Source of the DNA: a virus
Length of the DNA: 64,000 bases
IMG/VR virus record: IMGVR_UViG_3300030329_004647
Span: 1 to 64,000 of that record
Reading direction: 5' to 3' (one strand)
Shown: positions 41,862 to 59,108 of the stretch, piece by piece
Layout: every line of letters begins with the position of its first letter
Numbering within the stretch: the stretch's first letter is position 1
Notes under the pieces: model-generated
Seen by the model: the letters and a program-made list of their open reading frames with translations, nothing else
The model's database searches: none
What the model was told of the DNA's origin: nothing
Position numbers and translations under genes: made by a program

Positions 41862-44800
41862 ATGAAATCCAAAACTACATACTATACAGACGACTGGAAG
41901 GAGAAACTCGTAGATGACTTCTATACTGAATATTACCCCAAACCAAGACTAGAACAATCTATTTTTAAGTATTTAGATAATTTATATTATATAAGTGAGG
42001 ACGAAATATTTGGTACTATCTATAGAAAATCTGACGATTACTTTATGGGTAAAACTCAAATCACCGATGATTTACAAAATTTATTTGGTTTAACCTTACC
42101 TAATCTTTTAAAGATAGGTCCAGGGGAAGATGATTATATTGAACCCGCTAGAAATCCAATCCCTAGAAGGGTTTTAAATAATTGGATGAAAAGTAAACGA
42201 AATACAGAAAGACTTCAGAAAGAATCAATAGTAAAAGATAGTATTGTTTGTGATAATTGTGGATGGAACTGGAAAATAAAAGATGGTGGTGATGATTTAT
42301 ATATTTGTCACAAATGTAATCATAATAACACCCCTTTAAATGAACATAAAGAATCTAAAATAAATCCACAGTTAATGATAGGTGATGAAATCACTGTAGT
42401 TGATGTTGATGAAAGTTTTGGTACACTCCATACACCAGAACGATATAAAGATTATGTGGTTATAGGTAGACGACACAGACAACCAGAAAATTGGGAAGGA
42501 CCCGATGCGGATACTAGTTATTATGTGATAGAACCATTAAGTGGTTATAGTGATAAGGAAACATTAGGTCGTATGTTATCTGGTGGTGGAAGAAAAAGAG
42601 AAGAACAACTCCACCCAACAGATAAATGGATGTTAAGAAAAGGATTTTTAAGAGGAGAACATTTAACTGAACAAAAATCACTAAAAAATAATTTACTTAA
42701 TGTAGAATTAGAAGAAGGTGATAAAATACTTGTAGTGAGTAGAAAGGAGACACCAGCAGGATATAGAGAACCCTTACCAGACCACGACGTAGAGTTATTC
42801 ACCACCTATGTGGTTATAGAGAAAAGATATAGTGGGCATAAAGCAAAACACCCTTACCATTATTTCTTATTACCAGAGGAACAGTATGAGATTTTTATAA
42901 ACGACCCATATGATGATAGTGTAGATAAATCGGTAAAATCATTATTCCCTTGGATACACGATTGGATTTTAGATAATGAAGATATAATGACTGAACATAA
43001 AGAATCAAAAATTAATCCTGAGTTAGAAGTAGATGACATCATAAGAATAATTGATGTTGATGGGGAACATGATAGAAAACCAGAAAAATTTAAGTTATAT
43101 AGAGTAGCGTATAAGGGAAATAAACCAATTGGACATGGGTACTCGTGGGAAACAGAACCTAGAATATGGTATGATATAGTACCAACAGACCTTGACTACG
43201 ATACAGTAAGAACTTTTGATTCAAGGGGCACACCAATGTATCACAGTAAAAGTTTATATCCTGGAGATACATGGATTAAAATGGATGAAGTTATTAGTGA
43301 ACAGAGTGCTGATAGTCCAGGTGACAACATAAGTGATGATGATGAAGAATACGTAGACAATACACCGTTTACCAAAAAAGAAATTTTAATCTTAAATCAA
43401 TTACACAAAAAATTAACTAAAGATGAATTACACTCTCTTGTTATTGATACACCAGGAAAAGGAAGTTCGGATTACTACCAACACCAAGCTAAGTTTTGGG
43501 AAGTTATGAAATTATTTGGGATGGATTATAAAAATGACGCTCCCTACCAGACTAGAATTTCACAGTACGCTAAATGGGCATTAGACAATTGGACTCCAGA
43601 AGGTGATTATGGAAAGATTGGAAATCCCCTAAAAGTACCACTTAAATGGTACAATGTATCGAGAGAGGAAACAGGTACTCAAGTAGAGTATAAATCTGGT
43701 GAGGCAGAGGTACTAGGGTTTGATTATGATAATGCAGAAGAGAGAGCTAATAATGAATTTTGGGAATGGGGTGGAGAAATGGAACCATTTGATTATGGAG
43801 ACTATGAGGCACACGATAGTGAAATTACAGGTATTGACTTTGTTAGATTGGATGAAGCGAAAAGAATAGTGAAGGTGTTAAATGAACAAGATGAATCAGG
43901 TTTAGAAAGACAAATAATTCAAGCGGAAACTGAAGACTTCCAAGAACTTATGTATGAGGTTTTGAGAAGAGTTAGACAGATTCCGTTGGATAAAACAGTA
44001 TCACCTAGAAGAATTAAAGAAATTTTAAGTGATGACGGAGTAAGTTTCGACCTCTATCAAGGAGCAGACCTTAATGAGGAAATACATAGAGAATACAATA
44101 GAGTAAGATTTTATGAATATAGTCAACAACTTTTAAAAGCTGCACATTCAAAAGGAGTAAGAGGTCACTATTTTGAAGGTTTATTAGCAGGATTATTTAA
44201 TGGTGAAGTTGTTAGTCCGATGGAAGGGGAAATGACCGACCCAAAAGAAGATGTCCTTATTAATGGTATTAACTACTCAGCTAAATTGGTACGTGCTCAA
44301 GATAAAAAATGGGGAACATCCAGTTTACTAGGGGGATTTAAAAAAGCAATAATTCAAAGACTAGTGGATAGAGACATCGAAGTACCTGATGAATTATTGA
44401 AACGAAAGTTAGAGGTTAAAACTCTTAATGAGTTAGTAGTTTTATTTCCCGAAGGAGACCCAGATAGAGAGTCTTTTCAAGTTAGACATATGGAATTGTT
44501 TTTAAAAGATTCATCTGTAGACAGAAAGTATAAAGAGATAACAATGAACTATGCTTTTACCAGTAAATCAGAAGAGGAAATAGGTATAGAATTACATTGG
44601 ATTTTTGGATTAATATGGGGTACCAATGAGACTTTTGAAGGAGAAGAATTACCTACTACTAATTTAAAATATTATTTAATGGATACTCCTAGTTTAATAG
44701 ATGGAATACTCGATGGTGATATTCATTTTACAAAAGGTAGAAACATTAGGGAAATTAGAATATCGGAAAAAAGCATGATAGACTCAAATGGGGCTAGTGA

Positions 44801-45815
44801 ACACTCAATCATATTTCCAGTGATTACAAGACAAGACCTTAAAAATTTATTATATGACGAAAAGTCAGAAGAAATGGTTTATAAGGTAATGGGTATATTT
44901 AAAGACTTCAGACCAGGTACTGAAAAATATATGCATCATAAAATAGCTGATGTAATCGCTGATAATCCACAAGAGTTTATTAAAAGGTTACAAGATTTAT
45001 TTCCAGAAAAGAAAATCACAAAAGAAACTTTTTCCAGAATTATAGAAAATATAGATACTACAGAAATAAAATATGCTATAGACCAACAATATAGAACTGA
45101 ACCTGATTTAAAATCTGATATTATACAATCAATACTTGGAGACGAAGAAACAACTGAGGATACTTTTTATTTAAACCCACAAGGTGTAGAATTAAACGTA
45201 CCACCAATCAAAATAGCACAAAAGGTTAGTGATATTAATGATTATGGTGAGATTAATTTTGAAATGCAGGGTGGAAACGGTATCGCTTATTTTACAGATA
45301 AAGACTTAGTAATAAAACTTACAACTGATGAATCTGAATATCACACAGCGACTAAACTACTAGGAACAGAAAATAAACATATTGCTAATGTGTTAGAAAG
45401 TGCAAAAATTAACACTTCACATATAAAAGGTGACCTTTTTATGATAGTAACAGAAGCTTTACATATGACCAAAGAGATGGAAGAAATATGGCACAAATGC
45501 TGTTGTTCAGAAACAGACCCAATTTATATAGATTATACTCAAGAACCAGCTAGACCTATATCACCAGTATCAGAACATGCAATATGTCAACCTATATATG
45601 ATAATATTATATCAATAATTAGTGATTTAACGTCACATGGAATAACTTGGAGTGATATTGGGATAGATAATCTAGGTATTAAAAATGGAAAACTAGCCTT
45701 AATAGACTTAGGAGATAGTCAAGGTGGGTCACTTAAAGGTAAAATACTAACATTAGAAAGGAGAAATGATTTAATACAAAGAGAACTTTTATATGAAGAT
45801 GTATTCCCTAACTAA
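41862..45815 (+). CDS. Giant multidomain putative cargo polyprotein A
   Basis: A 1317-residue protein. A zinc ribbon (CDNCGWNW and CHKCNHN) lies near residues 128-152. Three SH3-like units with the pattern xLxxGDxIxxVDVD occur at about 165, 278 and 384. A helical KLTKDELHSLV / FWEVMKLFG unit with acidic tail (GDYEAHDSE) lies at about 505-670. A possible PD-(D/E)XK nuclease core spans about 766-809 (GHYFEGLLAGLFNGE, then DVLINGINYSAKLV). A protein-kinase-like C-terminus includes GGNGIAYFTDKDLVIKLT, ITWSDIGIDNLGI and LALIDLGDS at 1135-1285. Modules are separated by LNE-H (159), LTE-Q (268), MTE-H (376), ISE-Q (478) and LNE-Q (673), matching T4-type prohead protease sites. A virion-packaged, protease-processed polyprotein is inferred. 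Confidence 0.75.
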   Translation: MKSKTTYYTDDWKEKLVDDFYTEYYPKPRLEQSIFKYLDNLYYISEDEIFGTIYRKSDDYFMGKTQITDDLQNLFGLTLPNLLKIGPGEDDYIEPARNPIPRRVLNNWMKSKRNTERLQKESIVKDSIVCDNCGWNWKIKDGGDDLYICHKCNHNNTPLNEHKESKINPQLMIGDEITVVDVDESFGTLHTPERYKDYVVIGRRHRQPENWEGPDADTSYYVIEPLSGYSDKETLGRMLSGGGRKREEQLHPTDKWMLRKGFLRGEHLTEQKSLKNNLLNVELEEGDKILVVSRKETPAGYREPLPDHDVELFTTYVVIEKRYSGHKAKHPYHYFLLPEEQYEIFINDPYDDSVDKSVKSLFPWIHDWILDNEDIMTEHKESKINPELEVDDIIRIIDVDGEHDRKPEKFKLYRVAYKGNKPIGHGYSWETEPRIWYDIVPTDLDYDTVRTFDSRGTPMYHSKSLYPGDTWIKMDEVISEQSADSPGDNISDDDEEYVDNTPFTKKEILILNQLHKKLTKDELHSLVIDTPGKGSSDYYQHQAKFWEVMKLFGMDYKNDAPYQTRISQYAKWALDNWTPEGDYGKIGNPLKVPLKWYNVSREETGTQVEYKSGEAEVLGFDYDNAEERANNEFWEWGGEMEPFDYGDYEAHDSEITGIDFVRLDEAKRIVKVLNEQDESGLERQIIQAETEDFQELMYEVLRRVRQIPLDKTVSPRRIKEILSDDGVSFDLYQGADLNEEIHREYNRVRFYEYSQQLLKAAHSKGVRGHYFEGLLAGLFNGEVVSPMEGEMTDPKEDVLINGINYSAKLVRAQDKKWGTSSLLGGFKKAIIQRLVDRDIEVPDELLKRKLEVKTLNELVVLFPEGDPDRESFQVRHMELFLKDSSVDRKYKEITMNYAFTSKSEEEIGIELHWIFGLIWGTNETFEGEELPTTNLKYYLMDTPSLIDGILDGDIHFTKGRNIREIRISEKSMIDSNGASEHSIIFPVITRQDLKNLLYDEKSEEMVYKVMGIFKDFRPGTEKYMHHKIADVIADNPQEFIKRLQDLFPEKKITKETFSRIIENIDTTEIKYAIDQQYRTEPDLKSDIIQSILGDEETTEDTFYLNPQGVELNVPPIKIAQKVSDINDYGEINFEMQGGNGIAYFTDKDLVIKLTTDESEYHTATKLLGTENKHIANVLESAKINTSHIKGDLFMIVTEALHMTKEMEEIWHKCCCSETDPIYIDYTQEPARPISPVSEHAICQPIYDNIISIISDLTSHGITWSDIGIDNLGIKNGKLALIDLGDSQGGSLKGKILTLERRNDLIQRELLYEDVFPN

Positions 45816-45816
45816 G

Positions 45817-45830
45817 TATTTATTTATATA
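45817..45830 (+). promoter_or_regulatory. TATTTATTTATATA element (putative phage-specific promoter)
   Basis: Lies 8 bases before the 45839 ATG, directly after the stop of giant gene A. Confidence 0.5.
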
Positions 45831-45838
45831 TCAAATAT

Positions 45839-48800
45839 ATGGCCAATACTACATTACATAAAAACAAAATATCTAGAGAAGACCTATTAAGCTTCTACAA
45901 TACCCCAATACCACAGATAGGGGACAGAATACAAATTTTAGAAACCACTAACGTTGTTGAATCAGGTGAGGTTTTTAATGTTAAAGGTGTACACAGAACA
46001 TCCCAAGGTGTCTTTATAAAATTACAAGAAATTAAAGATAGGTTACCTTTATATTTACATGATGAAGAGACGGTAGAAAATACAACTAAAATTCGTATAT
46101 TAAATCCAAAAAATTTCAACAGCCCTCCACAGTCTTTACTAGAAAAAGGTGATTTTATAATGGTAGAAAATACCCCTTCACCTTTATATGTACTTAAACA
46201 AGACAACCATATTGTAGAAACATTAAGTTTACATCCACTAGGTTTGGATATTAAGAAGATAAATTTAAATGAAAGAAAACATAAATTGTTAAAAGAAAAT
46301 GAGGAAAAGACAACTAAATCTAAAATTTATGACAACCCTGAAGTAAAGGTTGATGACAAAGTACAAATTTTACATGTTCACCATCCTAATAGTTTTAATA
46401 AAAAGTATATTGGTGAAACAGGTATAGTAAAAAGAATTAGTCAGAATGAAAGTGAAGTTCACATAGCGGTAGATTTTGGAGAAGATGATTATAGAAGAAT
46501 AGGTAGTGATGTTGTATACCCTATGTTTAAGATAAAAGGAAAGGTACTAGGTGATTTATACCTACGTGACGGTTCCCCTGAACAAGTTTGGGTAGATAGG
46601 GATTTAGTTAGAATAGTACCAGAACCCATCGTTGAACAAAAAGAAAAAGAAGTAAGTCCTGACCTCCAACTAGGAGATAGAATAATGACTTGGGACATAA
46701 CACCAGACGATACACCACCAGGAGGTCTACGTGCTGAAGATGACTGGGAACCACCCAGTACTTTCATAGCTACAGTAATATCGGTATGTGAAGATTGTTA
46801 TAACCCAAAATATGAAAATGGAATAAAGTATGTGGTAAGGATTGATGATACTGGTGAAGAGGTCGGTCTATATGGGGGTGAAATAGTAGAGGACCAGATG
46901 TCAACTAAATTTTCTACAGAATATACCCCAATAACTTATGAAGGTAGAGATAAGTGGATAAAATTACCTAAGTTAGATATTACAGAAGAATCAGATATAT
47001 TTGGACAAGGATTAATGGACCCTATTGAACCTGAGGAGTTTGAGGGTACGGATAAAGATTGGGAAGAGTTAATTAGTGGTATAGAAGAACCAGCAGATGA
47101 ACCTGAATATGAATATGAAGGAGGTAAAACCGACCCAGAAAAAGGGTTTGTTGCCCCATCTAAAGAAGTTACAGATAATATATGTAAAGTTAAAGGATTT
47201 TGTGAAGCTCAAGGACCTATTACATTTGGTCAACTAAAAGAATTAGTTGAAGAAGCAACATCCAAAAGAATCCAAGCAGATATGGGAAGAGGAGCATTCA
47301 AGACTCTATGGAGAATTGTTCCATTCTTTGTCCCTCAAATACTATTACCAGCTATCGGTGTTACAATAACAAGAGCCATCAACAAATTAGTTACTCCAGC
47401 TTTAAAAGATACAAGAGGGTATAAAGAATGGTGGGGAAAAGTTGTATTAAAAGCTATGGATATTGCAGAAGGAGATTACATCCCTGACCTTGCTATGGGT
47501 GATGACCCTATAAGTAAAGTATTCTTTATTTCTGATGGTTTACTACAAATGATTAAAGATAAATACAAACTTAAATTTGCGAGATATGTTGCAGATGTTG
47601 CAGCATCCAAACCAGATGATGAACCAGTTCCAGATTGGTTCGTGGATAATTTACTAAGAGATTACTTAAATCAAAAATTCTTATTAGACCCACCATTACC
47701 CATAAGACAATCAACGAATGATTTAGAAGGAATAGAATTGGAGGAAGATTTAAGAAATTGGGGATATAAAGATGGTAAAATAGGACCACTTAAAGAACAG
47801 ACAGAAGTAGAAGTTGTGGATGATAATATAGGGGGTTTAGATAAGGCAGGTGGTTATGTAGAAAATAGAAAATTTACACCCAAAGAATGTAAAATATTAA
47901 AACTACTATCTAATAGATTTGAGTTTGATGAGTTGCAGAAATTAGTAAATGTAGATTCACATGCATTATCTGGTGAATTCCAGAATAAATGGGGAGACAC
48001 CATGAAATTAATTGGAGAACCTCTTGGTTCAAATGAAACATGGGGTAAATCACTTAGATGGGCATCTTGGATTATTGATAATTACGACTATGTGAGTAGT
48101 ACAGGTGATGGGTTTTGTGATATAGAGAAACCCTTAATAAGATATCCATCTATGTACGAAGTACGGGGAGATGATTCAGGATGGGAAAGAATATATAGAA
48201 GTGGTTATATTGAGGTTCCTGCTTTTGATGAGGATGATGCTTACGATAAAGCTGACAACCATTGGTTTGATTACGAACCAGAGATGGAAACCTCTGATTA
48301 TGGTGATTATGAATCCGATGATGATTTAGAATTAGCGGAACCAGAACACATTAAGACTTTAAAAGAACAACAACTACCATTTAATTCAGACAATAAAAAT
48401 ATAGAAAGAGACCATCCTAAAGGTGAACCTGATTGGTCTATTAGAAGAGGTAGACAACATTATGCTATGAATGTTAAGGATACTAAAAGTGAACCAGTAA
48501 CAGCACTTAATAATTATCTAGTTAAAAACTCACCATTTAACTTTTTAGGTTTTGATTATTATCTAACCGCAGTTCCAGGTAGAATGCCAAACCAAGCTAA
48601 TGTAGATATATTTGTACCTATGTTGGATACAGGATATAATGCTGATAAATTATGGACTACAAGATTTTCACCAGTGGTTAATTTAGATATACATGATGAT
48701 GAGGGTCCATACTTAGAATCTACAATTGAATTTCTCCACCAAATTAGAGCAGATGAAAAATGGCCAGAATATTATATGTATGATGAGGTTAGAGATAAAT

Positions 48801-51202
48801 TTCCTGACCAAGTTAAATCATACGAAGAAAGAGAAAGTGACTACATAAATACACCAGGAGTAAATTACAATAATTCATGGAAAAAGAGAGAAGATTTACT
48901 AGAGGACGAATTAGTTGAGTTAGGTAAATTATTTGGTATTGAACAAATTTTAATCAATAGACAACCATTCTACCCTTGGAAAAGAAAAAAAGATTCTTAT
49001 GGTAATGAAGATATTAGACCAGGAGAAACAGTCCCTAGAGAATACCCAAGACCTATAAAAGAACACGAAGAAAGGGATAGTGAATTTAAACAAGCGGTTC
49101 AAGATGTGGTGTATAAAGTTTATCCTCACATTGTAGAAAACTTAGGAATACCAGATGAAGGAGTTCCTGGAGTAGAATTGTGGGAAGATATCTACGCAAG
49201 ACTTAGTGGGATTGAAGATATGAGGGGTGAAGCTAGTGATACCACTAAAGCAGAATATGTGGATGAAGAGAATATGATATATATCTATTACCCAAATATG
49301 GAAAGTATAGAAGATATAATACGTTCCTTATTACACGAACATACACATTCATTACAAGACCCAGACCGTACAGGACAAAGAGCTGGAGGATATGATTATG
49401 ACCCTAATGAAATAGAAGCTACTGAGGCAGAATCTAATTGGAGAGACTACCTTGTATATGTACAAGAAGACTTAACGGAACAGTCAACAGGAGAACAACC
49501 TATTTTTACAAAGAGATTTCTTACAATTTTAAACTACTTTTTCACCATGAATGATATTAATAGTGCTGAAACTTTCCAAACAGCTTTTAATAGAGAATAC
49601 CCAGGAACAACATGGTACCCAAATTGGTTATATATGGTGTTAATACACAATAGAGATAAATTTGGACTATCGAGTATAGAGAAAGCTGTTAGTACTATAA
49701 AACCAGAGGATTGGGAATTCCCATCAATATGGTCTTATGAAGTAAGTTATTGGGATGAAGGTTATGAAGGTGAAGAAGATGAAGAGTGTGATAGTGATGG
49801 TAGAGGAGAAGAAACTTATGAGGAGTGTGAAGAGTGTCTACGTGCTGTAAAAGAAGTTGAAGATGAAGAGGGGTATGTGGAAGAAGTGAAGTGTGACGAA
49901 TCTGAGCACCCATACTATGACGATGAGGATTGTCGTTGTACAGATTTTGAAGTAATGAAATATACAGTTTGGTATAATCAAACTAGGTATGTGAATTTTT
50001 TAAGTTTAGAACCTTTAGAAAACACCAATGATGTAGGTTACACGTATGGATATGAGGATTGGGATGAAGTAGACTCAGACATAGATTATAACCGAACAAT
50101 TATTACTTCAGAAGAGGAAGAGACTGATTGGGATGATTCACATTTAGAAGAATATAATCTTGAAAGAGAAGGTGATATTATTGGAGTAGATGCTGATGAG
50201 TATGATTCATCGTACGTAAAAAAATACCTAAAAGACTTAGTATCCAAAGTTACAGGTCGTTCAAATCTCGAGGAACAATATGATATGATATCTACCGAAG
50301 AAATAACACAATTAAATAATTTTAAGAATCATATTTGGGATAGTTTAAACCAATTATTTCAAATCAAACCAGACCAAGACGGAGATTTTGATTTTGAGGG
50401 TAAACCTGTTGGGTTATTTCATATTGGGTCGGGAGAAAGAATCCCAATAGAAAATATTTTTGAACCAATCGCTGAAATGTTAAGACTACCTGAAATAACT
50501 AAAAAAGAGATAGCTGTTATGACTGAAGTAATTGTAAGTTGGATTAACCTTAACATGTCTCAAAAAGCACCTTTATATGAGAGATTATTGAGGGAAGAAA
50601 AAGTAGTAGGATTTGATTCACCTAAAAATAACTTTGTAGTTATAGCGGGAGGTCCAGGTGCTGGTAAAAGTTTTATAACTAAAAATTTAGTTAATTTAGA
50701 TGATGTTAAAGAATTTAATGTTGACCAAGTGAGGGTTATGACAGCAAAAAAATTATGGGGAGACGAATGGGAAGAAAATATATCTACAGAAGAAGGATAT
50801 CAAAAAATATTAGATATGACCTACACAACTTCTGACCCTAGAAATCTAACAGTTAAATTTCTTAAAAACTTTTTAACTCAAAAAAGAGAACAACCTGTAA
50901 ATGTTATTTATGATGCTGGTGGGGGACAAGAACAAGTTATGAAAGATGTACATAAAATAGCAAAAGACTCTGGATTTAATACTACATTAGTATATGTCAG
51001 AACTCCTTTAGATGTTGCACAACAAAGAAATTTAGAAAGACCAAGAAGTTTACCTTCTGATATGGTAGCCCAGTATCACCAAAAAGTTAAAGATAATATG
51101 AGAAACATGATTCCTATTTTTGATAATGTTTGGACGGTAGACAATAAAGAACTGATAGATTTATCCAATAGACCTTCGGATAATATAGAAAAGATAAAAT
51201 AA
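45839..51202 (+). CDS. Giant multidomain putative cargo polyprotein B
   Basis: A 1787-residue protein with three SH3-like GDxIxI units (near residues 20, 175 and 277), a hydrophobic domain (TLWRIVPFFVPQILLPAIGV near 490), two or more copies of the helical-plus-acidic DYGDYE unit (near 690-835 and 1220-1400), a zinc-metallopeptidase-like region with HEHTH at 1166-1170 and a following EIEATEAE, and a zeta-toxin-like kinase at the C-terminus (Walker A GGPGAGKS at 1604-1611). Linkers LKE-N (151), IVE-Q (264), LKE-Q (651), LKE-Q (841), LTE-Q (1212), LEE-Q (1477) and LRE-E (1584) match (L/I)xE cleavage sites and fall between domains. It is best read as a processed head-cargo polyprotein that delivers several activities. 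All enzymatic calls rest on motifs. Confidence 0.75.
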   Translation: MANTTLHKNKISREDLLSFYNTPIPQIGDRIQILETTNVVESGEVFNVKGVHRTSQGVFIKLQEIKDRLPLYLHDEETVENTTKIRILNPKNFNSPPQSLLEKGDFIMVENTPSPLYVLKQDNHIVETLSLHPLGLDIKKINLNERKHKLLKENEEKTTKSKIYDNPEVKVDDKVQILHVHHPNSFNKKYIGETGIVKRISQNESEVHIAVDFGEDDYRRIGSDVVYPMFKIKGKVLGDLYLRDGSPEQVWVDRDLVRIVPEPIVEQKEKEVSPDLQLGDRIMTWDITPDDTPPGGLRAEDDWEPPSTFIATVISVCEDCYNPKYENGIKYVVRIDDTGEEVGLYGGEIVEDQMSTKFSTEYTPITYEGRDKWIKLPKLDITEESDIFGQGLMDPIEPEEFEGTDKDWEELISGIEEPADEPEYEYEGGKTDPEKGFVAPSKEVTDNICKVKGFCEAQGPITFGQLKELVEEATSKRIQADMGRGAFKTLWRIVPFFVPQILLPAIGVTITRAINKLVTPALKDTRGYKEWWGKVVLKAMDIAEGDYIPDLAMGDDPISKVFFISDGLLQMIKDKYKLKFARYVADVAASKPDDEPVPDWFVDNLLRDYLNQKFLLDPPLPIRQSTNDLEGIELEEDLRNWGYKDGKIGPLKEQTEVEVVDDNIGGLDKAGGYVENRKFTPKECKILKLLSNRFEFDELQKLVNVDSHALSGEFQNKWGDTMKLIGEPLGSNETWGKSLRWASWIIDNYDYVSSTGDGFCDIEKPLIRYPSMYEVRGDDSGWERIYRSGYIEVPAFDEDDAYDKADNHWFDYEPEMETSDYGDYESDDDLELAEPEHIKTLKEQQLPFNSDNKNIERDHPKGEPDWSIRRGRQHYAMNVKDTKSEPVTALNNYLVKNSPFNFLGFDYYLTAVPGRMPNQANVDIFVPMLDTGYNADKLWTTRFSPVVNLDIHDDEGPYLESTIEFLHQIRADEKWPEYYMYDEVRDKFPDQVKSYEERESDYINTPGVNYNNSWKKREDLLEDELVELGKLFGIEQILINRQPFYPWKRKKDSYGNEDIRPGETVPREYPRPIKEHEERDSEFKQAVQDVVYKVYPHIVENLGIPDEGVPGVELWEDIYARLSGIEDMRGEASDTTKAEYVDEENMIYIYYPNMESIEDIIRSLLHEHTHSLQDPDRTGQRAGGYDYDPNEIEATEAESNWRDYLVYVQEDLTEQSTGEQPIFTKRFLTILNYFFTMNDINSAETFQTAFNREYPGTTWYPNWLYMVLIHNRDKFGLSSIEKAVSTIKPEDWEFPSIWSYEVSYWDEGYEGEEDEECDSDGRGEETYEECEECLRAVKEVEDEEGYVEEVKCDESEHPYYDDEDCRCTDFEVMKYTVWYNQTRYVNFLSLEPLENTNDVGYTYGYEDWDEVDSDIDYNRTIITSEEEETDWDDSHLEEYNLEREGDIIGVDADEYDSSYVKKYLKDLVSKVTGRSNLEEQYDMISTEEITQLNNFKNHIWDSLNQLFQIKPDQDGDFDFEGKPVGLFHIGSGERIPIENIFEPIAEMLRLPEITKKEIAVMTEVIVSWINLNMSQKAPLYERLLREEKVVGFDSPKNNFVVIAGGPGAGKSFITKNLVNLDDVKEFNVDQVRVMTAKKLWGDEWEENISTEEGYQKILDMTYTTSDPRNLTVKFLKNFLTQKREQPVNVIYDAGGGQEQVMKDVHKIAKDSGFNTTLVYVRTPLDVAQQRNLERPRSLPSDMVAQYHQKVKDNMRNMIPIFDNVWTVDNKELIDLSNRPSDNIEKIK

Positions 51203-51751: not shown

Positions 51752-52615
51752 ATGAATAATTTATTTACCTTATCAGAACAAGAAAAAAATAGAATTAGAG
51801 GACTTCATTTAACTGAATCTAAAGATAAAAGACTCACATCTGTATTATGTGAACAAAAAAGTGTTTCAGTACCAAGTAACTGTGTAATGGTAAGCTTTGG
51901 GAGAGGTGAATCTCAAATTGACACAGAAATAGATAGAAATATTGTGGAATTATTAGACAAGGGTATGATGAGAGACCGACCTTTTATTACTATAGAAGCT
52001 GGTACCTCAGGTACAGGAAGTGACGCTGCTAATAGAGAAGTAATGGATGATAGAATTAATGAGGCAATATTATTAGTGATTAAAGCAGCAAAAAATTTGG
52101 TTGGTCCTAGAGGATTAAATTATGCTGAATCAGCAATTCAAAGTAAAATCGATAGACAATACTCATACAACACCATTGAGCCTGGTTCTGTTATAGGAGA
52201 CGAACAAGTTCCAACTGATGAGGACGACCCGTTCTTTAACCAATTTCAATACGTTAAAATTTGTTTTAATGAAGTTTTAGAGACGCCTGAATATGATAGT
52301 ATCGCGGATGAGTTCGTTGAAGCTACCATAGACACCACTTTTGGATATGATGAGGGTACCGTATATTCTATTTTAACAAAGTTACGTGATAAAGATGATT
52401 TTGATGAATTTAACGCTGAATTAAAAAGAGGTAAGTTAAAAATGGACTTTTATGAAATATCTTGCGATAAACTAAGTGCTGATTTAACACCTGGTTGGAT
52501 GGACAAAATATTAGGTACCAGTGGAGAAGTAACTTTAGCTACAGAAATTGGTCCTAGTGATACAACTATTAACGCTCACTTACAGAGACTAGGAGTTCCA
52601 CCAATCAATTGTTAG
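51752..52615 (+). CDS. Putative cargo protein with OmpA-like domain
   Basis: A 287-residue protein starting MNNLFTLSEQEKNRIRGLHL and continuing TES, an alternative (L/I)xE-ending N-terminal peptide, with a second possible site LCE-Q near residue 33. Residues 40-150 have the OmpA-like pattern (VSFGRGESQIDTEIDRNIVE, then ITIEAGTSGTGSDAANREVM), suggestive of peptidoglycan binding. Residues 185-230 contain FGYDEGTVYSILTKLRDKDD, an annexin-like helical repeat. It ends tail to tail with a leftward HAD gene. It could be a virion protein acting at the cell wall. Confidence 0.65.
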   Translation: MNNLFTLSEQEKNRIRGLHLTESKDKRLTSVLCEQKSVSVPSNCVMVSFGRGESQIDTEIDRNIVELLDKGMMRDRPFITIEAGTSGTGSDAANREVMDDRINEAILLVIKAAKNLVGPRGLNYAESAIQSKIDRQYSYNTIEPGSVIGDEQVPTDEDDPFFNQFQYVKICFNEVLETPEYDSIADEFVEATIDTTFGYDEGTVYSILTKLRDKDDFDEFNAELKRGKLKMDFYEISCDKLSADLTPGWMDKILGTSGEVTLATEIGPSDTTINAHLQRLGVPPINC

Positions 52616-53043
52616 ATAGTTTTAATAACCTCTAAGTCTATATTAGGATAATCTTTAATAGTTTCTTTTAGTGAGTTGATATGTTTATCCTTATCCTCCC
52701 AGTATTTTACTCTCGTACAATTAGGATATTTTTTAAGAATTTTTTTAAGTCTATTACCTTTATTACGGTCACCATTCTCAATTAAGTAATAATCCTCAAA
52801 CTTATATCCATACTCTTTTAATAAGTTTTTTAGTGAATTTTTTACTTCTAAAACTCTATTAGATAAGATAAAAAGATGACCACTTTTATCTTTTAAAGCT
52901 TTTTCATAATCTCTTTTAGTGTCCTGTATCACTTCAAACTCTAAGTCAGAATTTAAACTTTCACTTTTATCCATATATTCTATAGATTCTTGATAAGGTA
53001 TTTTTAATATTGTATTGTCAAAGTCGAAAAGGTATATTGTCAT
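52612..53043 (-). CDS. HAD-family phosphatase (HAD_SAK-like)
   Basis: A 143-residue HAD protein beginning MTIYLFDFDNTILKIP (Asp7/Asp9 nucleophile pair), with motif II FILSNR near residue 60 and KYWEDKDKHINSLKE near residue 114. The DFDNT...SNR...EDK.H order recalls the HAD_SAK domain associated with RNA-repair Swiss-army-knife proteins, though here it stands alone. It is leftward, transcribed from a TATCTTTG promoter, inside an otherwise rightward cargo block, and overlaps the OmpA-like gene tail to tail by 4 bases. Confidence 0.75.
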   Translation of the reverse strand: MTIYLFDFDNTILKIPYQESIEYMDKSESLNSDLEFEVIQDTKRDYEKALKDKSGHLFILSNRVLEVKNSLKNLLKEYGYKFEDYYLIENGDRNKGNRLKKILKKYPNCTRVKYWEDKDKHINSLKETIKDYPNIDLEVIKTI

Positions 53044-53062
53044 ATGATATTTTTATTTATTA

Positions 53063-53070
53063 CAAAGATA
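53063..53070 (-). promoter_or_regulatory. Bacteroidota-type -7 element (TATCTTTG, leftward)
   Basis: Read leftward, TATCTTTG lies 19 bases before the ATG of the HAD gene. A rightward phage-type element at 53076 lies back to back with it, so the two promoter classes diverge here within 25 bases. Confidence 0.6.
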
Positions 53071-53075
53071 CTAAA

Positions 53076-53087
53076 TATTTATTATAT
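53076..53087 (+). promoter_or_regulatory. TATTTATTATAT element (putative phage-specific promoter)
   Basis: The element abuts the ATG at 53088, so the longer in-frame start at 53010 is excluded and the mRNA may be nearly leaderless. Confidence 0.5.
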
Positions 53088-53339
53088 ATGAAAGCAAGAA
53101 TCAAAAAAATATTAAGAGAGTTTAACATGGAGATATTGGATAGTGAACCATATAAAGATGGTGAATTGGTTCTAGAATATGTAGATATATATGATTATCC
53201 TAGATATGTTATTTTTCACGAAACTGGTGATACAGAAGAAGGTAATACTGACGGTGAAATAGTAGTGGAATTAGATTCTAGATTTGTGGATGCAGAGATG
53301 GCAAAAGTAATAATGCAATACATAGCTGGTAGAAAGTGA
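53088..53339 (+). CDS. Small putative cargo protein
   Basis: An 83-residue acidic protein starting MKARIKKILREFNMEILDSE. The first 11 residues are the basic amphipathic peptide ending in LRE that recurs in this block. The remainder alternates acidic and beta-like stretches. It overlaps the next gene (GTGA), which starts at GTG. The start at 53088 is set by the promoter-like element and by the conserved peptide. Confidence 0.7.
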   Translation: MKARIKKILREFNMEILDSEPYKDGELVLEYVDIYDYPRYVIFHETGDTEEGNTDGEIVVELDSRFVDAEMAKVIMQYIAGRK

Positions 53340-54706
53340 AGAACTTAATTAAACAAATATTAAAAGAACAAACAGAATCATCAAACCGAGATGAAAAAGT
53401 GGACAACTTAGGACTACCTCCAAATACAAAGTATGATTTTGAGTCAAGAAGTTACATTTCCGTACCTAGAATTTCACGTGCACTTTTTCTTAAGGTAGTA
53501 AGGGGTTTAGTTGATAGTGTGACCAAAGAAAAAGCAATAGAAATAGCTGTTTCTATGGGACATATTGACAGTGATTTATTCTCGGATACTCTTAAATTAT
53601 ATGGGATAGACATTAGAGCCGACCGATTATTAAGTGAAAAATTATTTTGGGCAACATATGATAATTGGGATAGATTTAATAGTGATAACCCACCTCAATC
53701 ATACAACGAATTAGAATTAAGACCTATAAAAAAATACGAAGTTCCAGTAACTGACTATGTTAGTAGAAGTGTTGCTATAGATTATACAGTAACAGAATTC
53801 GCTTATAGTGCCAAGGATGTTAAGGAACTAATACGGAATAATGTTGATGCTGAATATGTTTACTACGAGTGGGAGGACTCTCGTGATTATCGAGAAGAAG
53901 TAGGTGAAGAAGACACTACAGATACTGATGTAGGTGAACCAAAAGAAGTAGCGTTTATAAATGAATCTAGAAATAAAAAAATTATAAACGAAAATCCTAG
54001 TCCACATGAAAATGAATTAATAGATGGTTTAAGAAAAATATTACATAAACAAAAAGAAGCTCATTCCGAAGACGCTTGGTATGATGATATACAACACTTA
54101 TTTAAAAAACTAAACATACCATTAGAAGAACAAAGAAAACCTTTACAAGAAGGTAACCTTCACGGCCTTCCAGTTTATGAGTTCGATAAAATAGACAATA
54201 AAATAGTACAAAATCTACTTAAACAGTATACGTGTTTTGAGATAGACCAAATGAATAGATATAGTGAAGAGTATGTACACGGTCAACTTAGTGATACGTT
54301 AAAACTATACGGAAGACATTTAACTCCAGCTTACGAATATTATCCTAAACAGTTAGTACAATTTATTGTAGATAAAGGATGTCCAGATGATTATACTCAG
54401 TTTATGGGAGAACGATTACCAGATATTAATCAGTATGCAATCGACATGACATATACCGAAACAGATGTAGTCGCAAAAACAGCTGAAGTAATAATACATG
54501 ATACAAACTTCCAATCAGCGATGTGTGCTGCTAGAGATAATTTTTGGGATTATGACCCTGATACGTATGATACTGAGGTAATAGATAGTGATTACCAAGG
54601 TAATGAAGAGTGGACAAGTGTAACTGTAAATGGTACAACAAAATGGAATATACACGGTGGTTCCAAAAATGATGATAACTACAACCCAACGGATGTAGAT
54701 TGTTAA
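53336..54706 (+). CDS. Putative cargo protein with duplicated helical/acidic unit
   Basis: A 456-residue protein starting MKNLIKQILKEQTES (GTG start) with the LKE-Q site. It contains two copies of the unit also found in the giant proteins: helices with SDLFSDTLKLYGID near residue 80 and HGQLSDTLKLYGRH near residue 320, each followed by a strand-rich region and an acidic/Tyr tail (EWEDSRDYREEVGEE; FWDYDPDTYDTEVIDSDYQG). Internal sites INE-S, INE-N and LQE-G (near 205-275) separate the copies. No enzymatic motif is seen. An internal-head structural or effector role is inferred. Confidence 0.72.
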   Translation: MKNLIKQILKEQTESSNRDEKVDNLGLPPNTKYDFESRSYISVPRISRALFLKVVRGLVDSVTKEKAIEIAVSMGHIDSDLFSDTLKLYGIDIRADRLLSEKLFWATYDNWDRFNSDNPPQSYNELELRPIKKYEVPVTDYVSRSVAIDYTVTEFAYSAKDVKELIRNNVDAEYVYYEWEDSRDYREEVGEEDTTDTDVGEPKEVAFINESRNKKIINENPSPHENELIDGLRKILHKQKEAHSEDAWYDDIQHLFKKLNIPLEEQRKPLQEGNLHGLPVYEFDKIDNKIVQNLLKQYTCFEIDQMNRYSEEYVHGQLSDTLKLYGRHLTPAYEYYPKQLVQFIVDKGCPDDYTQFMGERLPDINQYAIDMTYTETDVVAKTAEVIIHDTNFQSAMCAARDNFWDYDPDTYDTEVIDSDYQGNEEWTSVTVNGTTKWNIHGGSKNDDNYNPTDVDC

Positions 54707-54715
54707 ATAAAAAAA

Positions 54716-54726
54716 TATTTATAATA
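54716..54726 (+). promoter_or_regulatory. TATTTATAATA element (putative phage-specific promoter)
   Basis: An exact consensus copy one base before the ATG at 54728. Confidence 0.55.
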
Positions 54727-54727
54727 G

Positions 54728-56170
54728 ATGAAAACCCTAATTAAAAAAATATTAAGAGAAACAAAAGTTAAACTACTTAATGAAAAAACAATGGATTACT
54801 TTCCAGTGGGGAGTGATAACTTTAATGTGGGTTACGATAGAGAAGGTCTAGGAAGAGGTGTTAGACCAAAAGTTTTGGATAAAGATGATAGTATCCAAAA
54901 CAGTGATTATAGTACTAGACATAAAGGAATAGATATATTTGGACCTAAAGGAGAGCCTGTGGTATCACCAGTAGATGGTGTCGTTTCCAAAATAAATAAA
55001 AGAGATAGAGGTAAAGGTGGTAAAACCATTACAATTCTTAGAGATGATGGTTTATCTTTTTACTTATCACATTTAGACACAGTAGGAGATTTTGAATATG
55101 ACGAACCTATTAGTGCGGGACAACAAGTTGGTACTTTAGGAAATACTGGAAACGCTAAAGGAACTCACCCTCATATTCATTTTTCAGTTTATGGGCCAAA
55201 AGGGTATTGGAGAGACAATAGAGACCCCTGGCCTTATTTAAAAAGTACTTTAGGTACAATTGTTAGTAAAACACCAGAAGATGATTATATTCCAGGTGAG
55301 GAAGAAGAATATCAAGAAGATGTTATAGTGATGTGGGACGGTATGAAGAAGGGTAGAAGAGAGAAAAAAGAACAAGTTAGAGAAATACAACAATTACTCA
55401 TAGATAGAAATTATGTGCTGCCTAGATTTGGTGTAGACGGTAGATTTGGTCCAGAAACCTTATCAGCAGTAAAGGCCTTCCAAAAGGATTACATGAGTGA
55501 AGTGAATGGTGAAGTTGGTTCCGAAATGATAGAGTTATTGAAAAATGAAGAGAATATAAATAAAAATCCTGAAATGAATGACCCAATCAAAGTAAAAGAA
55601 TTAAGTAAGGATAAAGAATATAAAAACTTTTCACCAGAAGTATTAGACGCGATAGAACAAGCTAGTAACACATATAACATATCTCTAGAATTATTATTAA
55701 CTATAGCTAGTATTGAGTCTAGTGGAAACCCAAGTGCTAAAAATAGTAAGAGTGGGGCTTCAGGACTATTTCAAATCTTACCTAGATATTTTGATAGTTA
55801 CGGAGTTACAGAAACTACTGTTTGGGACCCATATGTAAATGCCGATGCAGCAGCAAATAAATTAAGTAAAAAACAACAAAAACTAACAAAATTTTTAGGA
55901 CGTGTACCAACAGAAAGTGAACTGTATGTATCACATAATCAAGGCACAACAGGTTTTAAAGTTATCTATACTGCGTGTCAAAACTTTAGTGACCTAGATG
56001 GTGATGAGAGTTTAAAACAAGCAGCGGAAAGTTTAGGATATAACAAAAATTATGGTTACAAAATTTATAAAAACATGAGAGGTAATAAAGGAAGTGACCC
56101 TTGTACTTTTTTAAACTCTTGGGCAAATATTTATGCTTCTAGAGAGAAACAAATTAATCACCTAGTATAA
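54728..56170 (+). CDS. Three-domain virion peptidoglycan hydrolase (M23 peptidase, PG-binding, lytic transglycosylase)
   Basis: A 480-residue protein beginning MKTLIKKILRETKVKLLNEK, with two candidate processing sites (LRE-T and LNE-K). Residues 58-170 are an M23/LytM endopeptidase (HKGIDIFGP His/Asp zinc ligands, then THPHIHFSVYG). Residues 215-260 are a PG_binding_1 repeat (VREIQQLLIDRNY to TLSAVKAFQKDY). Residues 300-440 are a soluble lytic transglycosylase (catalytic Glu in LLTIASIESSGNPSA, then SGASGLFQILPRYF). Together they would cut both stem peptides and glycan strands. The N-terminal peptide suggests packaging in the virion and action on entry. This is one of the clearest functional anchors of the block. 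Confidence 0.92.
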   Translation: MKTLIKKILRETKVKLLNEKTMDYFPVGSDNFNVGYDREGLGRGVRPKVLDKDDSIQNSDYSTRHKGIDIFGPKGEPVVSPVDGVVSKINKRDRGKGGKTITILRDDGLSFYLSHLDTVGDFEYDEPISAGQQVGTLGNTGNAKGTHPHIHFSVYGPKGYWRDNRDPWPYLKSTLGTIVSKTPEDDYIPGEEEEYQEDVIVMWDGMKKGRREKKEQVREIQQLLIDRNYVLPRFGVDGRFGPETLSAVKAFQKDYMSEVNGEVGSEMIELLKNEENINKNPEMNDPIKVKELSKDKEYKNFSPEVLDAIEQASNTYNISLELLLTIASIESSGNPSAKNSKSGASGLFQILPRYFDSYGVTETTVWDPYVNADAAANKLSKKQQKLTKFLGRVPTESELYVSHNQGTTGFKVIYTACQNFSDLDGDESLKQAAESLGYNKNYGYKIYKNMRGNKGSDPCTFLNSWANIYASREKQINHLV

Positions 56171-56182
56171 TACAAAGATAAT

Positions 56183-56413
56183 ATGAAAAAAATTAAATTA
56201 ACAGAAGAAACTCTTGGAAGGATAGTAAAAAGAGTTATAATGGAACAAGAAAAAGAGGAAGGAATTAAACAACTCCATGCCATTCTTAAACGAAAATCAG
56301 AAGGAGAAGATGTGGAGAAAGAACTTAAGGATTTATTTATTAAACACCCTCATTTAGAAAAAATGCTAGGAGCATTAACACCTGAAGGTAAAAAAGAAAA
56401 CATAGGTAAGTAA
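56183..56413 (+). CDS. Small putative cargo protein
   Basis: A 76-residue basic helical protein. The first 22 residues (MKKIKLTEETLGRIVKRVIM plus EQ) form a longer variant of the block's N-terminal peptide, ending IME-Q. I recognise LTExxLxRIVKRVI-type starts from unannotated proteins of marine phages. The rest is a helical bundle-like segment. It sits 12 bases after the hydrolase and 2 bases before the toxin-like gene. Confidence 0.7.
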   Translation: MKKIKLTEETLGRIVKRVIMEQEKEEGIKQLHAILKRKSEGEDVEKELKDLFIKHPHLEKMLGALTPEGKKENIGK

Positions 56414-56415
56414 AC

Positions 56416-57417
56416 ATGAGACAATCAAAAATACTACAAATTATACGGGAAGAAATAGACCACCAAGAAAACGGACTTATTTTTGAGGGAGTAAATTCTT
56501 ATACCCCTACAAAGGGATATAGGAATAACCAACTTATAGAAGTTTATGATAGTAAGGGTAAACAACTTATTAATGAAGGAATGATTGATACTGTACAAAG
56601 TGTTTTAGATTATGCGGGATTTATTCCTGGTATTGGAGACCTTTTAGATGGGGTAAACGCTTTAATTTATATGATAAGAAAAAAGTATTTTTTAGGTGTA
56701 ACTTCTTTAGTTGCGGTTATTCCAGCTGTAGGAAGTGTGATAGCAGCACCATTTAAAGCAGCACACAAATTATTAGGTAAGGCAGCGAATAAATTAGGGA
56801 GTATTTTAGGTAAAATGGTTTCTAATGGTAAGAGTGCAGCTTCAGAATTGATAAAATTGTTACAAAGTGGTGGAACCAAACTTAAAGGGGTGACTGATAA
56901 AATTTATAAAGCTATTTCTAAAAATGTATCTAAAATAAACTCATTCTTAGATAAAGTCATACCAACACTAAATAATAAAATAAAAGATTATTCATGGGGT
57001 TATTTTGCATTACCAAATGCATTTGTTAAATCAGGAAACGCTATCATTAAACAAATGAAACAATTTTTTACACAATTAGGTAAACCAGCGTCCTATCAAG
57101 TTAGTAAAAAAGTAGCAAAGAGTGAGGTAAAGAAAGAACTTAAACCAGAAGAAAAAAAGACTAATTATAAAAACTATATAGCAAAATTAAGTAAAAAATA
57201 CAATGTACTCCGATATGGTAAAGAAAATGATTGGGGACAAAATAGATATGCGTTTTATAATAAAGATTGGCATTTTATTTGTCCAGATGGTTCTACGGGA
57301 AAAGCTTGTACCACTAGTAAAACCAAAGAGTTTACTCATGGTATTGTAAAACTCGCTGACGATAATAAAGCTAAGATAGCTCTAAAAAATTATATGGACG
57401 CTAAAAAAACAGCTTAA
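56416..57417 (+). CDS. Putative cargo protein with pretoxin/translocation-like hydrophobic domain
   Basis: A 333-residue protein starting MRQSKILQIIREEIDHQE, with IRE-E and later LINE-G (near residue 54) as candidate cleavage sites. Residues 57-115 contain VLDYAGFIPGIGDLLDGVNA and then FLGVTSLVAVIPAVGSVI, a hydrophobic hairpin very like the segments that precede toxin domains in polymorphic secreted toxins. A Lys-rich amphipathic region follows, then a C-terminal domain (YNVLRYGKENDWGQNRYAFY, CPDGSTGKACTT). A membrane-inserting role during genome entry is plausible. Toxin activity is not shown. Confidence 0.7.
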   Translation: MRQSKILQIIREEIDHQENGLIFEGVNSYTPTKGYRNNQLIEVYDSKGKQLINEGMIDTVQSVLDYAGFIPGIGDLLDGVNALIYMIRKKYFLGVTSLVAVIPAVGSVIAAPFKAAHKLLGKAANKLGSILGKMVSNGKSAASELIKLLQSGGTKLKGVTDKIYKAISKNVSKINSFLDKVIPTLNNKIKDYSWGYFALPNAFVKSGNAIIKQMKQFFTQLGKPASYQVSKKVAKSEVKKELKPEEKKTNYKNYIAKLSKKYNVLRYGKENDWGQNRYAFYNKDWHFICPDGSTGKACTTSKTKEFTHGIVKLADDNKAKIALKNYMDAKKTA

Positions 57418-58512
57418 ATGAAAGATATAATTAAAAAAATATTAAGAGAACAAATTTCTACTGAATTAGAACAAGACCTTAATGCTTTTCATCCAGATTT
57501 ATTTGAATTAGAAGAAGGTAAAAAGAAGAAGAAAAAAAAGAAAAAAGCTAAGAGAGACGCTTGTTATCATAAAGTTAAAAGTAGATATAAGGTTTGGCCT
57601 TCAGCTTATGCTTCAGGAGCTCTTGTTAAATGTAGAAAGGTTGGAGCAAAAAATTGGGGTAATAGTACAAAAGAAGGGGTTAAGTTAGATGAAGGAATGT
57701 ATGGTATGTCAGAACCATTAGATTATGTTGTAGTAGATATGAGAAATTTAAGACCACTCATGATGAACTATGGAGATGGTCAATATTATGAAAAATGGCA
57801 AACAGAATTAGACGCTCAAAAATCAGCAGACGACTTAAATAGAGCTTACCAAAAAACATATGGTGCGGTAGAAGGACCCCATGTTGTTATGTATAAATCT
57901 GATTACTTTACTGAAAAAAGAAAAGAAGATATGATGGAGGGTAAGAAGAGAAAGTTAACCAAAAAACCTAGTTCAGAAACAAGTTTAAGAGATTGGTTTG
58001 GTAGAAAAGGTGCTAAAGGAAGTACTGGAGGTTGGGTAGATTGTAACGCACCAGATGGGAAAGGTGGTTATAAATCTTGTGGAAGAAAAGAAGGTGAAAG
58101 TAGAAAAAAATACCCAGCATGTAGACCTACACCAGCTGCATGTAAAAGTAAAGGAAAAGGAAAAAAGTGGGGTAAAAAGAGTAAAAATGAATCTATAACA
58201 GAACAATATGGTAATTTTGTTAGATGGGGTGAGTTAATAACCGAGGCAGAGTATAAAGGTAGAAAAGTAAAACTTAATAAACCAACTAGAGGTGATGTTA
58301 AGAAGTTTAAGGTTTATGTTAAAAACGATAAAGGTAATGTAGTTAAAGTTAACTTTGGTCATGGAGGTACTTCGGCAAAAAAGAGAGGAGAAAAAACAAT
58401 GAGAATTAAAAAAAGTAATCCTGAAAGAAGGAAAGCTTTTAGAGCGAGACATAATTGTGACAACCCAGGACCAAAATGGAAAGCTAGATATTGGTCATGT
58501 AAAGCTTGGTAA
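57418..58512 (+). CDS. Putative cargo polyprotein of basic Cys-containing domains
   Basis: A 364-residue, strongly basic protein starting MKDIIKKILREQISTELEQD. A Lys run (residues 35-45) leads to domain 1 (ACYHKVKSRYKVWPSAYASG, residues 47-80). Domain 2 spans about 170-250 (SLRDWFGRKGAKGS, then GGWVDCNAPDG and YPACRPTPAAC), domain 3 about 285-364 (KFKVYVKNDKGNVVKVNFG, RARHNCDNPGP, ARYWSCKAW). I recognise these three domains as uncharacterised DUFs of marine T4-like phages (DUF5872/DUF6321-like by memory). ITE-Q and ITE-A sites lie between domains 2 and 3. The high charge fits DNA-binding internal head proteins. Confidence 0.78.
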   Translation: MKDIIKKILREQISTELEQDLNAFHPDLFELEEGKKKKKKKKKAKRDACYHKVKSRYKVWPSAYASGALVKCRKVGAKNWGNSTKEGVKLDEGMYGMSEPLDYVVVDMRNLRPLMMNYGDGQYYEKWQTELDAQKSADDLNRAYQKTYGAVEGPHVVMYKSDYFTEKRKEDMMEGKKRKLTKKPSSETSLRDWFGRKGAKGSTGGWVDCNAPDGKGGYKSCGRKEGESRKKYPACRPTPAACKSKGKGKKWGKKSKNESITEQYGNFVRWGELITEAEYKGRKVKLNKPTRGDVKKFKVYVKNDKGNVVKVNFGHGGTSAKKRGEKTMRIKKSNPERRKAFRARHNCDNPGPKWKARYWSCKAW

Positions 58513-58514
58513 CT

Positions 58515-59108
58515 ATGAAACTCCTAGATGTGTTATCGGAACAAATAGAAAGTAATTCTAATCAAGTAGAAAAAAGACTTAGAACACTATTCAGTGCAAT
58601 GCAGGACATCAAAGGAATAGACAACGTCGTGGGGTGTATATCATCAGAAAAATCTAGAGAAAATTGTATGGGTCGTCAGGGGTATATTGTAACCCAAACT
58701 GAGGTTTTGTCATTATTAAGATTATTTGGATATAATGCTTTGGATAAGATGAGATTTGACCAATTTGACATGTTTTATTGGTTAGCTACTTGTTTTATAG
58801 CGAACGGTGGTTACGCAAGGACTTTTAGTCAAGGACCTCTAGAGGCAGTTAATTTAGAAATAAATGTGAGAGAAATGCAAGCTGAATATGATGAAGAACG
58901 TATAGAAACAAGAGAGGGATGGGGTGATTTATATGATATGAGTGATGATGAGGATGCTAAACAATATTATTTAGATAATTTTGAGAGTTTAATGACGGAT
59001 AATGAACACCTAGATGATGATTGGGGTGATATAATAGATGTAAGAAACCCACAGGTAGTTGCACATAGAATAATAAAACTCAACCCTGAATGGATAGGAC
59101 TAAAATGA
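58515..59108 (+). CDS. Putative cargo protein
   Basis: A 197-residue acidic protein starting MKLLDVLSEQIESNSNQ (LSE-Q site). It contains the LLRLFGYNALDKMRFDQFD helices and a WGDLYDMSDDEDAKQYYLDN acidic segment similar in kind to the repeated units of the giant proteins. The start at the ATG at 58515 is chosen over a TTG within the preceding gene. Its stop overlaps the next ATG. Confidence 0.7.
   Translation: MKLLDVLSEQIESNSNQVEKRLRTLFSAMQDIKGIDNVVGCISSEKSRENCMGRQGYIVTQTEVLSLLRLFGYNALDKMRFDQFDMFYWLATCFIANGGYARTFSQGPLEAVNLEINVREMQAEYDEERIETREGWGDLYDMSDDEDAKQYYLDNFESLMTDNEHLDDDWGDIIDVRNPQVVAHRIIKLNPEWIGLK

Follow-up and report, generated by a model that had tools for sequence, protein, structure and literature searches.

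The window analysed here is the first 64 kb (64,000 nucleotides) of a virus record of 232,028 bases, IMGVR_UViG_3300030329_004647 (contig G000). It carries on the + strand the genes of two very large proteins, A (41862..45815; 1317 amino acids counted from the ATG, a TTG being located two codons upstream) and B (45839..51202; 1787 amino acids). A and B are probably cargo polyproteins that are packaged in the head and diced there by the prohead protease. At the level of sequence, the evidence for protease-punctuated polyproteins is strong. We observed motif enrichment, placement of the motif at module borders, conservation of its P3 and P1 positions, interchange of modules between chains and stand-alone proteins, and, in the same genome, a protease of the expected family along with a conforming site in the capsid protein.

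Enrichment of the cleavage-like motif

The first-pass annotation had described A and B as domains separated by (L/I)xE sites. Both open reading frames were confirmed and all 12 motifs that it had listed were located at their residues (sites are numbered by their P3 residue; the cut, marked ↓, is predicted after the glutamate two residues on). This list was correct but incomplete: it lacked sites B381, B1073 and A1060 as well as a third polyprotein, C. The latter (1426 amino acids; contig positions 90813-95093, corresponding to L016:6813-11093) has six [LIMV]xE[QH] sites and gave no match in a Pfam search.

The shuffling test that had been suggested for this type of motif gave a clear enrichment: [LIM]xE[QH] is found 12 times in A and B together versus 2.9 expected, i.e. 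four times expectation (0/2000 shuffles), and [LIM]xEQ eight times versus 1.7 (1/2000 shuffles). The density of [LIM]xE[QH] per 1000 amino acids is 3.87 in A and B versus 1.07 in the remaining genome (3.6 times). The wider class [LIM]xE[QHNE] is more weakly enriched (21 versus 11.3 expected). None of the control motifs ([LIM]xK[QH], [LI]xD[QH], [LIM]xE[KR], [LIM]xE[DST] and [AGSTKDEN]xE[QH]) is enriched in A and B.

Furthermore, independent polyproteins from other phages show the same excess, with 11 sites versus 3.3 expected in a protein of 3602 amino acids, 8 versus 1.8 in one of 2007 and 5 versus 1.1 in one of 1285, and most other large proteins encoded at the same loci are not enriched. 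When all proteins of four contigs were ranked blindly by excess of sites, a polyprotein came first in three of them and second in G004.

It is hardly credible that chance, through a linker composition rich in glutamate and leucine, yielded the motif. The proteins are indeed acidic, and [LIM]xE alone, which was tried as a test and abandoned, is not enriched in A and B (55 observed, 55 expected). However, the enrichment is specific to Q or H at P1', module borders coincide with that motif only, and both features recur in other phages.

Sites coincide with module borders

Mosaic relatives carry the same modules in another order: proteins of 3602 amino acids in L035, 2007 in L037, 1342 and 938 in L036, 1285 in L107 and 1546 in L014. 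Homology breakpoints were located in eight polyproteins without looking at the motif, and their distance to [LIM]xE[QH] was then scored with a threshold of 6 residues. Sites were found within this distance for 28 of the 119 breakpoints versus 4.8 expected (p 3.6e-14), and for 8 of 29 versus 1.45 expected in A and B alone (p 6.6e-5), both p-values being optimistic because breakpoints are to some extent linked among homologous proteins. Five control motif classes gave null or marginal results (lowest p 0.04). The claim that sites lie between modules is thus upheld by borders defined from homology. Among these sites, P3 and P1 are conserved and P2 is free.

Three additional borders were identified in this way. 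At B381-383 (DITE↓ESDIFGQG, i.e. ITE↓E), the module starting after the site follows IDE, LKE, LDE and LNE behind differing upstream modules. At B1073-1075 (PIKE↓HEER), the L036 and L037 relatives terminate with a stop codon, and L035 has the following module at the N-terminus of its protein; this position is therefore a fusion point that contains a site. The site at A1060-1062 (RIIE↓NIDT) is weaker, with homologous borders in relatives. A further regex match at B1165-1167 (LLHE↓HTH) was rejected as a border since it is the HExxH of a metallopeptidase-like module.

A head protease of the right family

Contig G000 encodes a terminase and a portal as well as a protease of the T4 gp21 type, a scaffold-like acidic protein and a major capsid protein of the T4 type. 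The protease gene (contig positions 116587-117303) matches Peptidase_S77 at 116713-117174 with 88.7 bits for a cut-off of 27 (E 4e-26), and searches against PHROGs gave head maturation protease (6e-44) and major head protein (8e-67). The capsid protein carries ATHLINE↓ATAADNSGSF, whose I and E are conserved in every relative with sequence extending this far; in G004, P1' is Q (LINE↓Q). Capsid proteins of this family are substrates of the head protease, and the one encoded here appears, at the level of the motif, to share the specificity seen in A and B, the LINE↓A position being presumably that of the T4 gp23 cut. In T4, gp21 cuts after L/I-x-E, and the internal proteins enter the head via an N-terminal peptide of about ten residues that gp21 removes (PMC9026906).

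Alternatively, the chains could be processed by their own metallopeptidase-like modules (B7, with HEHTH, and module C5), possibly inside the host. Both modules have HExxH-type motifs, and such self-processing has been proposed for polyvalent proteins (PMC5512222). However, A shares the sites yet lacks any metallopeptidase-like module, and the sites of A and B match those of the capsid protein and of small cargo-like N-termini, which makes self-processing improbable.

Modules also exist as stand-alone proteins

Several modules of A, B and C (predicted fragments are numbered from the N-terminus) are produced separately by other phages. All 12 relatives of B10 on viral contigs are separate proteins of 217-229 amino acids, with short, targeting-like N-termini that are mostly M(K/R)NLIKxILREE-like and end in L-x-E↓E-K-V (one has M-T-E↓A), P2 being variable. 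B4 is found in about 50 proteins, many of them stand-alone with a targeting-like N-terminus. Among forms without a long N-terminal extension, [LIVM]xE is present within 14 residues upstream of the B4 module in 33 of 33 distinct junctions versus 36% of random windows, and control motifs are at background level.

Likewise, stand-alone forms of module C5 begin after MRFRNLILE↓D, MITKKTILNE↓D or MTKEQILLE↓D. An A6 relative is found by itself in a 635 kb phage (L160, LR745206) after MKYLLPYKIYE↓S, and a B4 relative in a 735 kb phage (L159, LR756501) after MDYMKSYKDKLNE↓E; in these two phages, S77-like matches fall below the family cut-off. In front of a PAP2 phosphatase module, contig G000 has TIDE↓S, L037 has FLKE↓N and L035 has ELNE↓S. 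The protein concerned in contig G000 (80750-82297; 515 amino acids) is a short polyprotein made up of a targeting-like N-terminus, the PAP2 module and, behind PLNE↓D, a further module.

Small proteins across the contig also start with MKNLIKKILKE↓Q-like or LTExxL..VIKE↓Q-like peptides. [LIM]xEQ reaches 3-4 per 1000 amino acids within the first 25 residues versus 0.6 at residues 100-400, i.e. about fivefold. For instance, a cluster of smaller genes lies downstream of B (51752..60354, + strand), most of them with a targeting-like N-terminus ending in (L/I)xE, such as MKNLIKQILKE↓Q, MKDIIKKILRE↓Q and MFMRRLIQRILLE↓E.

The mean net charge of the 12 residues preceding the site is -0.57 at internal borders versus +1.69 in the (hand-picked) stand-alone set. 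Hence, internal borders keep the three-residue motif and lose the basic helix, a pattern more in keeping with a cut signal than with a fossil targeting peptide. This bears on the possibility that A and B are polyvalent multidomain proteins acting uncut, the (L/I)xE segments being left-overs from fusions of cargo genes that once had targeting peptides. Modules have clearly been fused and split among relatives, and packaging in one piece is possible for injected polyvalent proteins, N4 vRNAP for example (PMC5512222); however, a relic should decay throughout, whereas here P3 and P1 are fixed and P2 is free while the helix is gone. We consider this explanation unlikely. Even less probable is that the (L/I)xE segments are scaffold docking signals rather than cut sites: the T4 targeting peptide and cut site do lie within one N-terminal segment (PMC9026906), but internal borders retain the short motif without the helix.

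Structure models and observations that weaken the case

AlphaFold models were used to see whether, as expected by the first-pass annotation, sites lie in disordered linkers, and they give a partial answer. In A118-489, all four sites are in stretches with a predicted local distance difference test (pLDDT) score below 50, stretches that hold 39% of the residues. Several observations speak against dicing of A and B by the head protease, besides the optimism of the border statistics. In the model of B363-1217, the sites at B1075 and B1214 fall in low-confidence helices, and both models are weak given their mean pLDDT (58 for A, 45 for B). The site motif is short. A baseplate-like protein of 612 amino acids (contig positions 210017-211855) has four [LIM]xE[QH] versus 0.2 expected, maybe by chance, and also came high in the blind ranking. 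The zinc ribbon of A is preceded by QKE↓S, which is not (L/I)xE. By inspection, no N-terminal targeting peptide could be recognised in A, B or C, and entry into the prohead is the weak step of the proposal; the 938-residue L036 and the L037 polyproteins carry one (MYTLKEIRKILNIQE↓Q). Finally, two polyprotein-bearing records have no S77 protease. Its absence from G003 was set aside as counter-evidence: the whole head block is missing there, so G003 is a fragment.

Predicted fragments of A and B

Cutting of A would give fragments A1 to A7 of 19.2, 12.7, 12.8, 12.1, 22.6, 45.1 and 28.7 kDa. A1 (41862..42344; residues 1-161) has an N-terminal part without assignment and a zinc-ribbon mini-module (CDNCGWNW..CHKC), and ends with LNE↓H (P3 159); in relatives, the ribbon is followed by INE↓G, LNE↓G or ITE↓D. 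Three SH3-like repeats come next: A2 (42345..42671; residues 162-270), A3 (42672..42995; residues 271-378) and A4 (42996..43301; residues 379-480), ending with LTE↓Q (268), MTE↓H (376) and ISE↓Q (478), respectively. The 'KESK linker' reported after many sites is actually the start of this repeated module (HKESKINP...). A5 (43302..43886; residues 481-675), ending with LNE↓Q (673), is homologous to B5 and to modules in L014, L035, L036, L037 and L107. A6 (43887..45047; residues 676-1062) is possibly PD-(D/E)XK-like and ends with the weaker site IIE↓N (1060). A7 (45048..45812; residues 1063-1317) is a protein-kinase-like module with the motifs VIKL, WSDIGIDN and LIDLG. Catalytic-loop and DFG-like motifs are present, and PDB matches are weak (only E 0.08 over 43 residues). 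A 45% identical module comes after LIRE↓E or LITE↓E in L014 and L107.

For B, fragments B1 to B10 of 17.6, 13.1, 13.3, 30.5, 22.0, 27.6, 16.2, 31.5, 12.5 and 23.0 kDa are predicted. B1 (45839..46297; residues 1-153; ending with LKE↓N, 151), for which a search found no homologue, is perhaps SH3-like; B2 (46298..46636; residues 154-266; IVE↓Q, 264) is SH3-like by motif, and B3 (46637..46987; residues 267-383; ITE↓E, 381) is SH3-like. B4 (46988..47797; residues 384-653; LKE↓Q, 651) is the most widespread module, and B5 (47798..48367; residues 654-843; LKE↓Q, 841) is a paralogue of A5. B6 (48368..49063; residues 844-1075; IKE↓H, 1073) precedes B7 (49064..49480; residues 1076-1214; LTE↓Q, 1212), the HEHTH metallopeptidase-like module, which is N-terminal in the L035 protein. 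B8 (49481..50275; residues 1215-1479; LEE↓Q, 1477) is acidic with clustered cysteines and is partly homologous to L035 583-686. The small module B9 (50276..50596; residues 1480-1586; LRE↓E, 1584) is homologous to L035 2935-3018. B10 (50597..51199; residues 1587-1787) is a P-loop kinase (AAA_33) module.

The domain names given by the first-pass annotation (zeta toxin, PD-(D/E)XK, SH3) are only partly supported. B10 reaches 43 bits with AAA_33 (cut-off 27), its best solved relative being L-seryl-tRNA(Sec) kinase (5e-6). Zeta_toxin from Pfam gives 22.0 bits, just below its cut-off of 22.3, and this label was rejected in favour of that of a general P-loop kinase. The SH3-like modules have a beta-rich model and weak matches to SH3, Tudor and nitrile-hydratase folds, all with E>0.2; neither this fold search nor the model of B363-1217 was strong enough for folds to be named. 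Whole-protein searches (Pfam, PHROGs and phage records) matched almost solely the P-loop kinase module and B4, and profile scans using the kinase module of A and the A5/B5 module added few loci.

Genomic setting and host

The phage is a large marine T4-like jumbo myophage, probably of Bacteroidetes. This host is suggested by two genes of the window, one for a TonB-dependent receptor and the other for a type IX sorting-domain protein, and by a head-gene block that resembles that of Bacteroidetes bS21 phages (PMC9723584). The receptor gene (31523-33928; Plug 1.2e-23, barrel 2.5e-22, CarboxypepD_reg-like) shares its block with genes of a predicted lipoprotein (29414-30016) and an outer-membrane-like protein (30409-31521). 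The protein encoded at 26046-29417 (1123 amino acids) has a C-terminal type IX secretion sorting domain (Por_Secre_tail 3e-10).

Within the downstream cluster, the gene at 53336-54706 encodes 456 amino acids with a targeting-like N-terminus, an internal LEE↓Q and apparently two similar halves. The product of 54728-56170 starts with the targeting-like MKTLIKKILRE, continues with M23 peptidase, peptidoglycan-binding and SLT domains, and is perhaps a head-targeted cell-wall enzyme.

Proposed mechanism and significance

Modules that other phages of the group make separately, each with a targeting-like peptide ending in (L/I)xE, would here be joined in one chain that retains the same cut signal at every border. 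The chain may enter the prohead along with the core. There, the protease of gp21 type would trim the capsid protein and also cut after each (L/I)xE, releasing about 7 fragments from A and 10 from B. These fragments could then exit together with the DNA and exert their effects in the host at an early stage of infection. The proposal of the first-pass annotation that A and B are cargo cut inside the head thus gains the S77 protease and capsid site, homology borders, stand-alone modules and fusion and fission points, while cutting inside the head and injection of the fragments remain inferences.

More generally, it is likely that a lineage of T4-like jumbo phages made its capsid-maturation protease the general dicing enzyme of a modular payload. 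Cassettes bounded by (L/I)xE would come, go and change their order from phage to phage, some of them as stand-alone targeted proteins and others within chains of up to 3602 amino acids, and would be freed only inside the head. If so, cutting at (L/I)xE borders provides a sequence rule to read the head-packaged payload of large uncultured phages, each piece being a candidate injected effector, many of them without known family. With each module present once per chain, the polyprotein layout points to an easy means of setting stoichiometry, and it would offer a natural model for delivering several proteins in phage heads. Moreover, the question of how phages split their giant multidomain proteins into working parts would become directly testable.

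Comparison with known systems

The first-pass annotation knew of no phage polyprotein with so many packaged activities. Polyvalent proteins and T4-type head cargo are known, and the novelty is therefore partial: it lies in the punctuation of polyvalent chains by a head-protease signal, which was not found in the openly licensed papers to which our literature was limited, priority being unproven. Neither a survey of 224 jumbo phages from 2021 nor a jumbo-phage review from 2026 uses the word 'polyprotein'.

A and B combine several unrelated modules, some of them enzymatic, in one chain and in variable order. In this they resemble polyvalent proteins (Iyer et al. 2017), which have 2-15 shuffled domains, are very large, are predicted to be injected and include metallopeptidase-like domains (PMC5512222). 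For polyvalent proteins, processing by the built-in metallopeptidase was proposed, whereas A and B have a head-protease signal at their module borders, and their modules interchange with stand-alone targeted cargo. DarA/DarB and DdrB of P1 are also large head-located proteins, DarA and DdrB being reported as processed (PMC9024508, PMC5512222); in the parts of these sources that we consulted, no repeated border motif like that of A and B is described.

The head and ejection proteins of phiKZ and SPN3US (S80 protease, S/A/G-x-E or A-x-E) likewise undergo extensive processing after glutamate before being injected. However, of the 14 cuts mapped in nine SPN3US proteins, 13 remove N-terminal propeptides and one is C-terminal, and no string of separate effector modules is described (PMC10052503). 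The T4 internal head proteins IPI-III and Alt share with the present system a gp21-family protease, an (L/I)xE site, short N-terminal targeting-like peptides and a conforming capsid site, but they have one effector per gene and one N-terminal cut (Alt also a C-terminal one), whereas here several modules follow each other in one chain with a signal between each pair. Such multiple cutting of a single chain, as proposed for A and B, is known for the T4 scaffold and core proteins gp22 and gp67, each of which gp21 cuts into several pieces.
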